64,000 nucleotides of DNA from Thuidium tamariscinum. Taxonomy: Eukaryota; Streptophyta; Bryopsida; Hypnales; Thuidiaceae. The notes under the pieces are model-generated. The model had not been told where the DNA came from and searched no databases. It saw only the letters and a program-made list of their open reading frames with translations. The position numbers and the translations under genes were made by a program. Shown one piece after another: positions 1,873 to 61,958 of the stretch. The first letter of the stretch is position 1. Each line of letters begins with the position of its first letter. The stretch lies in assembly GCA_947034885.2 (NCBI GenBank), contig OX344752.2, positions 16,864,001 through 16,928,000 of the forward strand, in the 5' to 3' direction.

Positions 1873-2627
1873 TTAATCCCCTAATTAAAGCCCTGAGCTG
1901 CATTTTTTTGGCAACATAGTGATTTTGGGCAGCTCACTACGAATGGATTTTTTATTTTTTTTCTTTGAAATTTTCACACAAGATGTGCCCAAGGAGTAAC
2001 TTTAAGGCCCAACAATTTTCATAACTTTTGACTATGTGGTTAAAAAGTTGTGGCATGATATGTGATTTTCTTTGCTTAGCAGGCAACCCGGGCAGCTGAA
2101 AAAACTTCTTTAAAAAACACTTTTTTTTAAAAGTGAAATTTAAAATTGATTCTTTAGATTTATAAGAACATGGGATGCTTTGAATCATTCCATTTGGATT
2201 AAGAAGATGAAAGTTATGAGGAGTTTAAGTTTGCGGGTAGGTATGGTTTTCAAAGACTCCATACCTACTTGCAAACTAAAACTCCTCATAACTTTCATCT
2301 TCTTAATCCAAATGGAATGACTCAAAGCTTCACTTGTTCATATAAACCTAAAGAATCAATTTCAAATTTCACTTTATAAAAAAAAATGTTTCTTAAAGAA
2401 GTTTTTTCAACTACCTAGTCTGCCTACCAATCAAAGAAAATCACATATCATGCCATAACTTTTTAACCGCAAAGTCAAAAGTTATGAAAAATTTTGGGCC
2501 TTAAAGCTACTCCTTGGACACATCTTGTGTGAAAATTTCAAAGAAAAAAAAGAAAAAATCCATTTGAAGTGAGTTGCCCAAAATCACTATATTGCCAAAA
2601 AACGCAACTCAGGGCATTAGGGGTTAA
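1873..2627. mobile_element. Fold-back copy of TTAA element family A
   Basis: The two halves are inverted copies of about 370 bp each, meeting near 2252 where GGTAGGTATGG faces CCATACCTAC. Both outer ends look like the left end of family A: TTAATCCCCTAA at 1873, and TTAACCCCTAATGCCC reading inward from 2627. Both carry the GCCCTGAG(C/T)TGC and GGCAACATAGTGATTTTGGGC-type blocks just inside. It is therefore a palindromic derivative made of two left halves in opposite orientation. It encodes nothing. Confidence 0.75.
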
Positions 2628-2654
2628 TAGGTTGGAAATGGGTTGCAAGCTTCT

Positions 2655-3432
2655 ATAGTTAAAAAGTTATTGCATGATATATTGTTTCTTTTTCAACTTG
2701 GGCAATCCAAATAAATTTTAAAAAACACTTTTTTCATAAACAAAATTTTTTATATGAATATTCTAAATCTATATATACACAAATAGCTTTGAATCATTCC
2801 ATTTTGATTAATGAGATGAAAGTTATGAGGAGTTTTAGTTTGTGGGTGGTTATAGATTCCATACTCAAATAAACTTTGAAGTCTTTTATTTAACCGAATT
2901 TTCAATATTTTTGGAAATAAAATAAAATATTGGGTTTACATTGTTTATTACAACATTACAACCATTGGAATTGGCATTTCTCAATTTCATAACTAAATTC
3001 TTAACAATTTAATATTTCAAATAATTTTCTAATTTTTTCTACTTACTATTTGTTTCTTATATGTTGTACAATTCCAAATGATTTGAAAATTTTCAATCAT
3101 GTAGCCAACTTATTATGAAGAATGAATCCAAAGAAGCGCCAACAACATAAAGATTTTTTGATACAAATGTGAGCTTGTAAAGTACAAATGCCTGGTTTTT
3201 TGTAGGGCTAAAAACAAATTCTTGTCAATTCAAACACAAATATCTTGCACTCTACATGCTAGGAAATTTCTCAATTTTTTTAACATGTTCTCAAAGTAGC
3301 TTACTACAAGATCATGTGGTTATATGTTTTCAAAAAATGTTTCTTTTTCTAAATTTTGGTACTTGTTCTAAAAATGGTAGTTTTGGAGCATTTTTGGTGA
3401 AAACATGTTCAAGGAACTTTTGGGGTCATTTT
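2655..3432 (+). mobile_element. Family A element, left end missing
   Basis: This follows family A from the AAAAAGTTATTGCATGATAT block through GAATCATTCCATTTTGATTA, the TACAACCATTGG block, TGTACAATTCCAAATGATTT, and the right end GTGAAAACATGTTCAAGGAA. The terminal AGGGGTTAA is degraded to TGGGGTCA near 3425-3432. The first roughly 150 bp of the family are absent, probably lost when the fold-back copy at 1873-2627 formed or inserted next to it. Confidence 0.65.
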
Positions 3433-5525: not shown

Positions 5526-6109
5526 TTAATCCCTAAATGCCCAAGGCCTTTCTTGAGCTTCTAGGAATTTGCTCTAAATTGAACAAGAAGCCAACATTTT
5601 GATAAGTCTTACCATTTAAAAAAAATGTAACCAAACAAATTCAAACCACGTATGTTAGAGATCACTTAAGAAAAGAAAACACAACAGTATTCATTATAGA
5701 TTCAAAGATTATAATATTTGATCATGAGGGTGTTAAAAGTGCAAGAGTTAAAGGGCCTAATATGCATAATCCCAATCAATTTATGGCTTTTCAAAATCTA
5801 CTCTAGAGCTTTTTTAAATGAATTTCTAGTTTGGTTTTTTCTCCAAGCTCTAGTATATTTGACGTTCATTTTCAAGAACACTCAATACTATAGAAAGTCA
5901 AGATTGCAATGGATACCTTGTACAAAATTTTGAATAGAAAAACTATAATTAATCATTTTCAGAATTGGACTTTTGATTCTTAAACTAGACTTCAGGAAAA
6001 ATCTTATTAAAATATAGACTACTAAACATAGCAACTTGATTAGGTTTTATTTAACTTCAAACTTTTGCAAACACCAAATTTTGGTGCTTTGGGCATCTAA
6101 AGGGATTAA
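5526..6109 (+). mobile_element. Family D TTAA element, copy 1
   Basis: The ends are TTAATCCCTAAATGCCCAAG at 5526 and, reading inward from 6109, TTAATCCCTTTAGATGCCCA. Length is 584 bp. It is homologous along its length to 42033-42623 in the opposite orientation, with shared blocks such as TTTGCTCTAAAT, GCCAACATTTTGATAAGT, GAGGGTGTTAAAA and CACCAAATTTTGG. There is no coding capacity. TTAA on both sides and a CCC-type tip are what the piggyBac superfamily leaves; that assignment is inferred. Confidence 0.75.
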
Positions 6110-8058: not shown

Positions 8059-8974
8059 TTAATTTCTTAAAGATCAACTTGCTAAATTTGACAATATAGC
8101 AATTTTGGGCACATACATGCAATTAGAGATTCTCATATTTTTTGCCCAAATTTTTATAGAAGGCAGGGATAAGGAATATCTTTCATGTATACTAAAATTT
8201 AGGACATTTCAAAATATCACTCAAAAGTTATGGCCTGATATGTTACTTTTTTTTTTGTAAATGAGCTATTTGGGCAAATTTTTAAAAAATCACCTTCTTC
8301 AAAAACAAAAATTTGAAATTGGTTTTCTTCATTTATGTATCCTTGGAAAGCTTTGAATCATTCCATTTTCATCAATGAGTCAAAAGTTATGAGGACTTTT
8401 TGTTTGTGGGCAATTATAGATTCTCTATTCTAAAATAAACTTTGAAGTAATTTATGTTACTCAATTTTCAATATTTCTTGAAAAAAAAAATTGTAGTATG
8501 TAGATTGTTTATTAGAACACTGCAACCATTGGGATCATCATTTTTCAATTCTGTAAATAAATTCTTAACAACTTAGTATTGCTACTTCTTTCTACTTACT
8601 ATTTGTTTCATATATATTGTACAATTCCAAATAATTTGAAATTTTCTAGGCAAGCACTCTACTTGGCCCTAATAATGAATCCAAAGAAGCACAATTACTT
8701 AGAGCATTTTTCATATGATTGTTGCCTTCTAAAGTATAATTGCCTTGTTTATTTAGAGGTGAAAAAAGTTAGTTTGAGCATTCAAAAACTAATAACTTGC
8801 AATCTACATGGTAGAAAAGTCTAAAAAAAATTATGCATGTTTTGAAACTAGTTTACTATAAGATTTTGTAGTTACAAACTTAAAAAATGTTTAAAGGAAA
8901 TTGGTATTAGTACTAGAAATAGTAGTTTTTGACTATTTTTGAAGTAAACACAATCAAGGAACTTAAGGGGTTAA
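8059..8974 (+). mobile_element. Family A TTAA element, full-length
   Basis: It runs from TTAA at 8059 (left tip mutated, then AGATCAACTTGCTAAATTTG and ATAGCAATTTTGGGC) to ACTTAAGGGGTTAA at 8961-8974. It keeps the family order: AAAAGTTATGGCCTGATATG, GGAAAGCTTTGAATCATTCC, TAAACTTTGAAGT, GCAACCATTGGGAT, TTGTACAATTCCAAAT, CTTGCAATCTACATGG, then the right end. Length is 916 bp. Short open frames inside it (for example 8579-8824) are not conserved between copies and are not genes. Confidence 0.75.
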
Positions 8975-10446: not shown

Positions 10447-11392
10447 TCAACCCCTAAAGGTTTTTGACCATGTTTTCAACAAAACCATTCTAAAATTGTC
10501 ATTTCTAGAACAACTACCAAATTTTAGAAGAAAAACATTTTTAGAACAATGTAACCATAGTGTCTTAGAGTGCACTAGTTTGAGAGCATGTACAAAAAAT
10601 TTCAGAAAATTCCGCCATGTAGATTGCAAGATAATAGTGTTTGAAGTTACAAAAACCCCTTTTTTACCACTGCGGAAATTTGGGCAGCTGCACTTCAAAG
10701 GGTCACATTTGTATGAAAGAATGTCCAAAATCGTTGTAACTCTTTGGATTAATTTTTCAACTCAAGTTGGCTACATGCTTGAAATTTTTCAAATCATTCG
10801 GAATTGTACAACATGTACAAAAAAAATAGTAAGTAGAAAGAAGTAGAGAATGATTCAAAATACTGAATTGTTAACAACTAATTTATTTAACTAAAAATGC
10901 CAATTTCAATGGTTGTAATGTTGTAATAAACAATCTACACCCAAATTTTTTTTCAAAAATATTAAAAATTGAATAAAATAAAGGACTTCAAAGTTTATTT
11001 TAGAGTAGACATTCCATAACTTTCTACAAACTACTCACAAACTAAAACTCTTCATAACTTTCATCTCATTAATCCAAATGGCATGATTCAAAGCTTCCTA
11101 TATCTATATAAATTTAAAGAACTAATTTTAAATTTTTATTTCTTAAGAAAGTGTTTTTTGAAGAAGTTTTTTGAGCTACCTGGGATGCCCGCCAAACAGA
11201 GGAAATCACATATCATGCAATAACTTCTTAACCATTTAGTGAAAAGTTGTGAAAACTATTGGGCCTTAAAGTTACTCCTTGGATTCATGTTTTGTGAAAA
11301 TTTCAAAGGAAAAAAAGAAAAACTCCATCTGTAGTGAGGTGCCCAAAATCACTATGTTGCCAGAAAACGTAGTTTGGTCCTTTATGGGTTAA
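10447..11392 (-). mobile_element. Family A TTAA element, reverse orientation
   Basis: On the minus strand it starts TTAACCCATAAAGGACCAAA at 11392 and ends with CCTTTAGGGGTTGA at 10447-10460, so one terminal TTAA has mutated to TTGA. The interior follows the family, including the CAACATAGTGATTTTGGGC block, GAGATGAAAGTTATGAAGAG, ACAACCATTGAAATTGGC, and GCAGCTGCCCAAATTTCCGC near the right end. It is 946 bp. The open frames at 10447-10846 on both strands lie inside the repeat and are not genes. Confidence 0.78.
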
Positions 11393-42032: not shown

Positions 42033-42623
42033 TTAACCCCTAAATGCCCAAGGTGCCAAAATTTGGTGTTTGCAAAACTTTGAAGTTAGTTAAAACCTAT
42101 CCAGGTGGCTATTTTCAATGGTTCATATTTTCAAAAAGTTCTTTTTGAAGTCTAGTTTCAATGTCGAAAATCTAATTTGGAAATTTGTAGTCTTGAGATC
42201 TCTTGAAAATGAGCCTCACATACACTAGATCTTGGAGAAGAAACCACGTTTTAAATTCATTTATAAAAATTGTAGAATAGATTTTGAGAAGCCATAAATT
42301 GATTGGGATTATGCATGTTAGGCCCTTTAATCTCGTATTCTTTTGGTCACCAACTTTTCAAATTTGACTTGCAAAAAGAGGATAGAAAGACTTCACATTA
42401 CTTTTGTAGTTTTAACACCCTCATGGTCAAATGATATAATCTTTCACTCCATAAGTGATATTGTTGTATTTTTTTTCCTATGAGATTTCTAACATGTCTA
42501 GTTTGAATTTGTCTAGTTACAATTTTATTTTAAATGATACAACTTATCAAAATGTTGGCATTTTGTTTGATTTAGAGCAAATTCTAAGAAGCTCAAAATA
42601 GGCCTTAGGCATTTAGGGGTTAA
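42033..42623 (-). mobile_element. Family D TTAA element, copy 2
   Basis: Ends are TTAACCCCTAAATGCCCAAG at 42033 and, reading in from 42623, TTAACCCCTAAATGCCTAAG: 19 of 20 positions agree. Length is 591 bp. It is the reverse of the 5526-6109 copy. It is the cleaner of the two and gives the best view of the D inverted repeat. Confidence 0.85.
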
Positions 42624-46436: not shown

Positions 46437-46883
46437 ATATTGGGATCATTCTATGCTTTCAATGTACACATCTTAAACATTTTTGTTGCTCCAACTTGTT
46501 TAACTCTATGTGAATTGTAATATAAACAACAATTGATTAGAGATAGAATTGTCTAAACTAAGGAATTGGAGTGGTGGTTGAAAATAGGTTTCTAAACTCT
46601 AGACATCCTTAAAGGTTTTTATTTCATGCCTAACACTATATAATTTTACTAATTGGAGGCATCCATCTTATCTAACTTCTGTAAAGGTAGTTAAGATGTA
46701 AAAGTCATAATACAACAAATATAGTATTTTTATAATTAATCAATCCTAACCCATTTGAGATTGGAGTTTAAGGTATTTAATCAACTCTAATGATTTTGGC
46801 AATTACATTAAAATCAAAAACCAGTTAATTTGTTGTGTTTGAAGATGAGAAGAAAAGTCCACTCAACTTAGAGTCTAAGGTGT
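46437..46883. other. Intergenic DNA holding the target-site repeat of the next A copy
   Basis: No gene is recognised. The end of this stretch holds one unit of a roughly 105-bp repeat (GTTTAAGGTATTTAATCAAC at 46767-46786). The next unit is the one into which the A element at 46884 inserted. Confidence 0.5.
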
Positions 46884-47834
46884 TTAACTCCTAAAGGACC
46901 AAACTGCGTTTTTTGGCAACATAGCGATTTTGGGTTGTTCATTGCGGATGGAATTTTTTTTTTTTTTCATTGAAATTTTGACACAACATGTGCCCAAGAA
47001 GTAGCTTTAAGGTCCAACAAGTTTCATAACTTTTGACTACATGGTTAAAAAATTATGACATGATATGTTGTTTTCTCTACTCGGCAGGTAGTCCGGGCAG
47101 AAAAAAAACTTCTTGAAAAATTATTTTTTTGAAAAATTAAAATTTGAAATTAGTTTCTTTGATTTTTATGTAAGTGGAAAGCTCTGAATCATTCCATTTT
47201 GATTAATGAGTCAAAAATTATGAGGATTTTTAGTTTGATGTAGTTTTGGCTAGTTATAGAATCTCTACACTACAAAAAAGTTTGAAATTCTTTATTTAAT
47301 TCAATTTTTAATATTTTTGAAAAAAAAAAAAAAAATAGGGTGTATATTGTTTAACACAACATTACAACCATTGGAATTGTCTTCTTTTAATTCTATAAAT
47401 AAATTGTTAATAATTTTGTATTTTGGCTCATTTTCTATTTCTTTCTACTTACTATTTTTTTCCTATATGTTGTACAATTCCAAATGATCTGAAAATTTTC
47501 AAGAATATAGCCAACTTCAATTGAAAAATGAATTTAAACCGTTACAATCATTTTAGATATTTTTCCATACAAATATGGTCTTTTGAAGTGCAGCTGCCCA
47601 TATTTCCACAGTGGTAAAAAAATGATTTTTGTCACTTCAAACACTTATATCTTGCAATCTACATGGCGTAAATTTCTGGAATTTTTTTCACATCTTCTTA
47701 AACTTGTTCTGTAAAAGATCCTACGGTTATTTCTGTCCAAAAATGTTTTTTTCTTAAAATTTGGTAGTTGTCTAAGAATTGATAGTTTTGAAGCAGTTTT
47801 GGTGAAAACATAGTCAAAAACCTTTAGGGGTTAA
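46884..47834 (+). mobile_element. Family A TTAA element, best-preserved copy
   Basis: From TTAACTCCTAAAGGACCAAA to CAAAAACCTTTAGGGGTTAA, 951 bp. The tips share about 14 bp as an inverted repeat (TTAACCCCTAAAGG). All family blocks are present in order. The insertion lies in a host repeat whose neighbouring unit at 46767-46800 is uninserted and holds a single TTAA, which shows that TTAA was duplicated on insertion. TTAA duplication with CCC-starting tips is the piggyBac pattern; a transposase was not found. Confidence 0.85.
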
Positions 47835-48104
47835 CAAACTCTAATGATTTTGGAAACTAAGTTAAAATCAAAGCCCACTTAATTTGGTGTATTTAAAGGT
47901 AAGAAAGTTTTTTTATACAATTAGGGTAGTAGTAGGTAAAACAATCCATGTAGGATATGTAAATGAGGATTAATGGCAACTCAAGCACTTATATTTATGT
48001 CAAAACATGGGAATTATATTCAAAGAAAAACTTTAAACTTCATTTTATTATAATAGAATGTATTCTTTTAAAAAACTTTGGACTAAAGAAGTTAGGGAAT
48101 CAAT

Positions 48105-48600
48105 TTAACCTTGAAAGGACCAATGTTCATTTGGAGGACAAATGAGATTTCAAGTAGGTATATACGGGCTCAAATTTTGTCCTGATTTTTTAAAACTTTT
48201 TTTGAAGATAGAAAAATTGATTACCTTAATAAGAATATATATTTTTTTCAATCGATGACCAGGAACAAAAATTATGCCCAAATAAGCTCGAAATAGGGGA
48301 AACCAGGTAGCAAATTTCTTTTTCAAAATTTAAGTTGTAAAAATAATAAAAAATTCTTCTCATAGAATATATCTTTGTCTACATGAAAAGATTTGATTTA
48401 TTCCATCTGGATTTGTTATGAAAAAGTTATGGACAATCTTGTTTTTTGGGCAATTTGATCATCTTCTTGAAAAAATAACTTGTAGAATTCAATTTTTAAT
48501 GCATTTTTTACAATTTCAAAAACAACTTGCCACATGGTTTATTTTTCTTATTAGAACAATCCCACCATTGGGATTAGTGCATTCTTCAAAAACCAACAAA
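48105..48600 (+). mobile_element. Family B TTAA element, second clear copy
   Basis: It begins TTAACCTTGAAAGGACCAAT at 48105, then AGATTTCAAGTAGGTATATA, TTTTTTCAATCGATGACC, TTTGTCTACATGAAAAG, GAAAAAGTTATGGACAATCT and CCCACCATTGGGATTAG. The match to the 44522 copy fades near 48600. The 99-codon frame at 48418 overlaps the repeat and is not a gene. Confidence 0.55.
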
Positions 48601-48818: not shown

Positions 48819-49056
48819 TTAACCCTTGAAGGACGGACCGGTGGCCGTGGAAACCATGCATTTTGATATCGTGTGACATCACCTACTTTGAAAAAGCCAA
48901 ATATATGCATTGGAAGTCAAAGTACTGTAGAAGATCTTCCCTTTCCACCCCCAATACTGAGGATGAAAAGTTGCATTTCTATCCTGGAAGGAAAGATTCT
49001 TTGTCATTCAGCGAATCATCGGGCGCCAAACATCCGCGGCGTCGTTCAAGGGTTAA
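48819..49056. mobile_element. Family C TTAA MITE
   Basis: A 238-bp element with 16-bp tips TTAACCCTTGAAGGAC and, from the right, TTAACCCTTGAACGAC (15 of 16 identical), TTAA on both sides. Its interior is more GC-rich than families A, B and D (for example GACCGGTGGCCGTGG and CATCCGCGGCGTCG). It is non-coding; the small frames across it are accidental. It is compact and well preserved, so probably one of the younger insertions here. Confidence 0.85.
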
Positions 49057-61020: not shown

Positions 61021-61958
61021 TTAACCTCTTAAGTTCCTTGACAATGTTTACTCCAAAATTGGTCAGGAACTGCCATTTTGAAAACCAGTATCAATTTTTT
61101 TTAAAACATTTTTTGAGATATTTAACCATAGGATCTTGTAGTGAATTGGTTTGAAAATATGTTCAAAAAATTTCAAAGGTTTTCACCATATAGATTGCAA
61201 GATATTTGCATTTGAATGCTCAAAATTCTTTTTTTTTCACCTTGTAAGAAATAGGGCAATTGCACTTTACAAGGGAAAAATCATTTAGAAATTAGAATAT
61301 GATCCTATATGTTTGTGCCTCTTTGGACTCATTCATGTTGTCAAATAGACTACTTGTCTAAAAATTTCAAAATGTTTAGAATTGCACAACATATAGGGAG
61401 AAAATAAAAAGTAAAATGAAGTAGCAAATTATAAACCAAAATATAAAATTGTTCAGAATTTTTTTATGAAATTGGAAAATGCCATTCACAATGATTGCAA
61501 TGTAGTAATAAACAATCTATATCCTATGATTTTATTCTTTTTGAAAATGTAGGAAATTTAGTAAAATAAAGGACTTCAAAGTGTATTTTGGAGTAGAGAA
61601 TCTATAATTGCCCGAAATAAAAAAAACCTCATAACTTTTCACTCATTGATCAAAATGGAATGATTTAAAGGTTTTTGTACATATATAAATGAAGAAAACA
61701 AATTTCAATTTTTTTTTTTGGAGAAAGTGATTTTTTTCAATTCGCCCAAACTACCCAAGTACCAAAAAAAACACCATATGAGGCCATAAATTTTGACTTG
61801 TATTTCCAAATGTCCTGATTTTTTGTATACATTGAAGTTATTCCTTGTCACCATCTTGCATAGAAATTTGGGCTGAAAATATGAAAATGTACACTCACAT
61901 GTACCTATTCAAAATTACTATTTTGCCAAATTTTGCATATTGGTCCTTTAGTGATTAA
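61021..61958 (-). mobile_element. Family A TTAA element, reverse orientation, second copy
   Basis: Plus-strand start TTAACCTCTTAAGTTCCTTG at 61021 and end GGTCCTTTAGTGATTAA at 61942-61958; 938 bp. It is closest to the 8059-8974 copy (shared AAGTTCCTTGA right tip, CCCAAACTACCC, TGTACATTGAAGTTATTCC-type blocks). The short frame at 60972-61154 crosses its edge and is not a gene. Confidence 0.72.

Follow-up and report, generated by a model that had tools for sequence, protein, structure and literature searches.

A probable non-autonomous piggyBac element with a TTAA target site duplication in the genome of Thuidium tamariscinum

The stretch of DNA analysed here, a window of 64,000 nucleotides, carries a 943 bp element belonging to a family termed A, which is very probably (a chance of roughly nine in ten) a non-autonomous, MITE-like piggyBac element moved by the PF13843 transposase of related elements of about 5 kb. 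The assignment to piggyBac follows from the presence, in the same genome, of PF13843 transposases inside TTAA-bounded elements whose ends are related to those of A. Mobilisation of family A in trans by one of the piggyBac transposases of the genome is the most likely route.

The element occupies positions 46888-47830 of the forward strand, as established by direct reading, by comparison with genome copies and by a frame scan, and TTAA lies directly outside both of its ends. The left TTAA of the target site duplication is at 46884-46887 (direct reading, empty sites and copy comparison) and the right TTAA at 47831-47834 (direct reading and copy comparison), both given on the forward strand. Direct reading also places the left terminal inverted repeat, CTCCTAAAGG, at 46888-46897 on the forward strand and the right one at 47821-47830 on the reverse strand, where it reads inward as CCCCTAAAGG. 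The inverted ends of the window copy are thus 10 bp long with one mismatch, and the left end is CTCCTAAAGG in this copy as against CCCCTAAAGG in most other A copies read. The first-pass annotation had described an element of 951 bp; that length is right for the span 46884-47834 with both TTAA included, whereas the element itself measures 943 bp (947 bp if a single TTAA is counted).

No coding capacity is evident in the window copy, the longest stop-free frame being 75 codons, and an Rfam search of the 64,000-nucleotide window gave no match. Being short and non-coding, with inverted ends and many copies, A shows all the marks by which a MITE is recognised, and at 943 bp it is long for one, as the usual size is below about 800 bp. 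The usual inverted end CCCCTAAAGG (46888-46897 and 47821-47830 in the window) includes CCCTAAA, which we take to be the plant telomere repeat unit; the likeness is probably a coincidence.

Evidence that the element was inserted comes from the host repeat that it interrupts. Immediately to the left lies an uninserted unit of this repeat, a paralogous empty site at 46772-46878 on the forward strand, with a single TTAA at 46777-46780 (reading, local alignment and empty-site panel). It reads GGTATTTAATCAACTCTAAT and starts at 46772; the unit had first been placed at 46773-46792, one base off at its start, and is otherwise real. The filled unit reads GGTGTTTAA (46879-46887), then the A element, then TTAACAAACTCTAATG (from 47831), and the remainder of the interrupted unit extends over 47835-47905 on the forward strand (alignment and genome search). 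The right flank of A is 81% identical to the uninserted unit over 75 bp. The host repeat itself (46772-46878 and 47835-47905) is a dispersed repeat.

To obtain empty sites elsewhere, both flanks were fused at a single TTAA into a query of 120 bases, which was searched against the genome. Among the 33 matches reported, 26 cross the junction by their coordinates, including the window's own unit; two of the remaining seven are the halves of the filled site, and five start at query positions 44-49. A panel of 21 empty sites was then aligned, made up of the window unit and 20 of the 25 junction-crossing matches from outside the window. Exactly one TTAA is found at the junction in 14 of the 21, the other seven having TTTA (2), TTGA (2), TTTG, TTCA or a gap, and a doubled TTAA was seen in none of them. 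The single TTAA at empty sites indicates that insertion doubled a pre-existing TTAA, and these sites rule out that TTAA belongs to the inverted repeat and is not duplicated at all. The difference noted at first pass, one TTAA in the empty unit and two in the filled one, is borne out by reading. The check proposed there, alignment of the flanks and collection of further copies of A and of the host repeat, gave the single-TTAA sites just described (14/21, none double).

A genome search with the A element returned at least 48 matches (40 of 10378 first-look candidates were scored), of which the 28 best-scoring, the window copy among them, were compared. TTAA is present on the left in 27/28 and on the right in 28/28, so that 27 of the 28 have it on both sides, the exception being locus L054, and the base just outside the TTAA varies. 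Two copies (L044 and L057) have common flanks and represent a single insertion duplicated later, not independent events. Lack of a common TTAA boundary in other A copies, which had been named as an objection to transposition, is therefore not what the 27/28 copies show; together with the empty-site panel, they uphold the claim of real transposition into a TTAA target. The exact A-type left end CCCCTAAAGGACCAAA, searched for without any requirement for TTAA, occurs 1237 times in the genome, and in 1109 cases it is preceded by TTAA. The short end motif TTAACYCCTAAAGG has 9140 occurrences, compared with 25 for its reversed control, a count that mixes several related MITE families and does not represent A alone; of 30 such ends that were extracted as loci, some adjoin interiors that resemble A only locally.

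These copies bear on the possibility that A is a Stowaway-like MITE of the Tc1/mariner superfamily, duplicating TA with a preference for TTAA, in which case the first and last bases of the element would be A and T. A single paralogous empty site cannot separate the two types of duplication because TA within a preferred TTAA would look alike, and so it fits the TA and TTAA readings equally well. However, the outer T and A are constant in 27/28 copies, which argues for duplication of TTAA rather than TA, TTAA precedes 1109 of the 1237 exact left ends, and elements with ends related to those of A carry a piggyBac transposase. An origin of A in Tc1/mariner is consequently very improbable.

The age of the family can be judged from the same 28 best-scoring copies. 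Their pairwise identity ranges from 0.88 to 1.0 with a median of 0.92, and 17 of the 28 have a neighbour at 99.5% identity or more; young copies are present in the sampled family. The window copy looks old, its closest relative among the 28 being 91% identical.

The transposases were sought with the PF13843 (piggyBac transposase) profile, which gave at least 116 scored matches, all above the cut-off, from 659 first-look candidates. One transposase-bearing element, on contig C5, is 5096 bp long and runs from TTAACCCTGAAACGCC to TTAACCCCTAAACGCC (coordinates reckoned). Nine loci of this type (L070-L078) are found on five contigs; their flanks, which are unlike, begin in each case at the same 3' TTAA, and the loci differ by 0-2 bases in the 3984 compared, although they were picked for nearly equal scores and are not a random sample. 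Some transposase-bearing elements are, then, very young. One of the nine (L072) is inserted at a TTAA bordering an A relative. A second element, at locus L068, measures 5143 bp and has the ends TTAACCCCTAAATGCCC and TTAACCCCTAAGTTCCC; the right border is slightly open, as a second TTAA lies 12 bp further out. Of 20 downstream stretches, 14 showed an end starting with TTAACCC, as did 5 of the 12 transposase loci and 6 of the 7 downstream extensions; in one of these last (L131) the end turned out to be that of a nested MITE and was discarded as the terminus of a transposase element.

The proteins of L068 and of L075, one of the nine loci above, align with piggyBac (6x67) with three Asp-containing motifs in register; these we take to be the catalytic residues. 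The L075 protein also visibly aligns with piggyBat (9c0f), again with the Asp motifs in register, and by eye its C-terminus is cysteine-rich. TTAA-bounded elements of this genome thus contain a PF13843 DDD transposase, whereas A itself does not.

The connection between A and these elements would lie in their ends. A matrix was built from 21 piggyBac termini, all of which have A at position 7 and G at position 10; their CCC at positions 1-3 is in part a circular result, as the ends were chosen by TTAACCC. The usual left end of A scores 18.1 bits on this matrix, within the leave-one-out range of 13.2-22.2. The window copy is a weaker match: among the 1007 TTAA sites of the window its left end ranks 8th with 11.9 bits and its right end 12th with 8.0 bits, several of the higher-ranking sites being the ends of other such elements.

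In some comparisons, similarity also extends inwards. The MITE at locus L025, with end TTAACCCCTAAAGG, is 79% identical to the L068 element over the first 106 bp and 70-77% over the last 300 bp or so. In L068 the transposase separates these two parts, which is the pattern that an internally deleted derivative would leave. Two PF13843 matches, L126 (C1:42573199) and L127 (C7:17558055), also have the exact terminus TTAACCCCTAAAGG at 2.2-2.4 kb on their downstream side; these termini, read from the 3' side, probably belong to the same elements as the two transposases. For A, the right end of a copy chosen as young (L007) scores 57, 60 and 62 against L126, L127 and L068, where the 99th percentile of the background is 23-24, and its alignments to L126 and L127 are rich in gaps and cover roughly 265-295 bp. 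For the right end of the window copy, the scores against the same three elements are 52, 59 and 46, and the 99th percentiles are 84, 35 and 26; the score against L126 is under the percentile in a background that includes A relatives from the window. The left subterminal region of A shows no similarity to L126, L127 or L068, scoring at the background level of 15-21.

Because the right end of A resembles transposase-bearing elements while its left subterminal region does not, the exact parent of A was not found. None was detected by tblastn of 20 transposase frames against loci L001-L058 and the window, and no match to A at both subterminal regions was present downstream of PF13843 matches (20 stretches and seven extensions) or upstream of them (two stretches, L079 and L125). 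Pairing by eye of 100 of the 9140 TTAACYCCTAAAGG places gave two long-range pairs, of 7.5 and 10.3 kb; one of these was rejected as a parent, since an A copy whose end has mutated (L036) accounts for it. A small palindrome, for example GTCCCCTCGGGGGAC, is seen just inside the terminus of related MITE ends (L011, L025, L029, L033 and L125), and the L068 element, which bears a transposase, has one of this type near its 5' end as well. The palindrome may serve the transposase as a binding site.

The proposed course of events would be as follows. The transposase (PF13843, DDD) would be made not by A but by the relatives of about 5 kb with related ends, and would bind the termini of A in trans. A would then be cut out and joined to a TTAA target, and the joining would double the four TTAA bases. 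Cut-and-paste chemistry is suggested for A by the known mechanism of piggyBac.

TTAA duplication is a property of more than one superfamily, Sola3 among them. According to the part of PMC9587614 that was accessible, Kolobok also duplicates TTAA, but its termini are 5'-RR and YY-3', in contrast to A, which starts with CY and ends with GG. PF13843 is, moreover, the domain found in the elements with ends related to A (the transposase search covered PF13843), which makes it highly unlikely that A belongs to a different superfamily with TTAA duplication, Kolobok and Sola3 included. The first-pass annotation had taken TTAA as the mark of piggyBac; the assignment is supported by the PF13843 transposases in TTAA-bounded elements with related ends, and TTAA would be insufficient alone. 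Finally, although the two units adjoin in the window, almost no weight can be given to the idea that they represent an old tandem duplication or a chance similarity around an unrelated stretch with no insertion, in view of the thousands of similar ends elsewhere in the genome, the A copies with unlike flanks, the 20 dispersed empty host copies, and a local score for flank similarity of 47, where 500 dinucleotide shuffles gave no more than 23 (which excludes the chance similarity that had been named as an objection) and 976 other places in the window no more than 21.

Family A is not confined to one position in the window. A second A-type copy lies at 10449-11392 on the reverse strand; it is 80% identical over its length, with the left end TTAACCCATAAAGGACC present and a right end without TTAA. 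More relatives of A, diverged or broken and 69-81% identical, are found at 1904-3426, 8059-8974 and 61021-61958; the window thus contains piggyBac-type MITEs at several places. A second TTAA-bounded family, 591 bp long and ending in TTAACCCCTAAATGCCC and TTAACCCCTAAATGCCT, is represented at 42033-42623 and 5526-6109, and over its first 20 bases it does not differ from an end found downstream of a transposase match (L091). A further TTAA-bounded element, of 238 bp with ends TTAACCCTTGAAGGACG and TTAACCCTTGAACGACG, occupies 48819-49056, and a related end is located nearby at 48105. Stretches of the window also match protein domains, namely those of a ligand-gated receptor (ANF_receptor and Lig_chan), BTB and APEH_N. 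Beyond the window, the assembly comprises 11 large contigs, one contig of 115,000 bp in which rbcL is found, and one of 103,123 bp on which cox1 is split into several pieces; mitochondrial genomes of mosses mostly measure 100-110 kb (PMC4664403), and a moss host is likely. The two 5S loci, with 1.5 kb on either side, gave no other Rfam match, which tells neither for nor against the linkage of 5S to the large ribosomal RNAs expected of a bryophyte.

Among known systems, the piggyBac superfamily (6x67; piggyBat, 9c0f) shares with A the duplication of TTAA, and the relatives of A likewise have a PF13843 transposase with the three aligned Asp motifs. A differs in having no transposase, and its ends, CCCCTAAAGG, can be set against the CCC, A7 and G10 common to the 21 transposase-bearing termini. 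The Pokey-derived mPok elements of Daphnia are reportedly short, non-coding and TTAA-flanked, as A is; mPok is an animal piggyBac-derived MITE, whereas the host here is a plant. The plant MITEs Tourist and Stowaway resemble A in being non-coding, with short inverted ends and a high copy number. However, Tourist belongs to PIF/Harbinger (TAA/TTA) and Stowaway to Tc1/mariner (TA), while in A four bases, TTAA, are duplicated and the relatives are piggyBac elements.

As a native transposon of plants, piggyBac receives little discussion; in animals it serves as a standard tool. The view taken at first pass, that it is not a usual part of plant genomes, is partly right: the host looks like a moss rather than a flowering plant, and some papers do list piggyBac for plants. 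In the portions of these sources that were accessible, it appears among the MITE superfamilies of angiosperms in a review (PMC10004981) and among plant superfamilies in PMC10794571, and is counted in a fern (PMC6890710). A further candidate source, PMC10619864, was set aside since the matched word in its accessible text is 'piggybacking'. A 2025 MITE survey that covered 207 plant genomes, four of which are from bryophytes, uses neither the word piggyBac nor TTAA in its main text, and the same holds for a 2025 review of plant MITEs (PMC12595863). Among the papers listed for piggyBac together with mosses, bryophytes or Physcomitrium and its like, a literature in which subscription journals are poorly covered, no title pointed to a native moss piggyBac.

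The host is an unusual one for piggyBac, and there are signs of very recent movement. Recent movement is suggested by the nine loci that differ by 0-2 bases in 3984, the identical A-type copies and the thousands of related ends. On balance, this plant appears somewhat likely to carry a native piggyBac system that has moved very recently and is perhaps still mobile, on a scale that was not found described for a land plant in the literature searched. The omission of both piggyBac and TTAA from the main text of the 207-genome survey suggests that TTAA elements can be missed by surveys that sort plant MITEs into the usual superfamilies. If a recently mobile native system is indeed present, it would offer plant-adapted transposases together with their miniature substrates.
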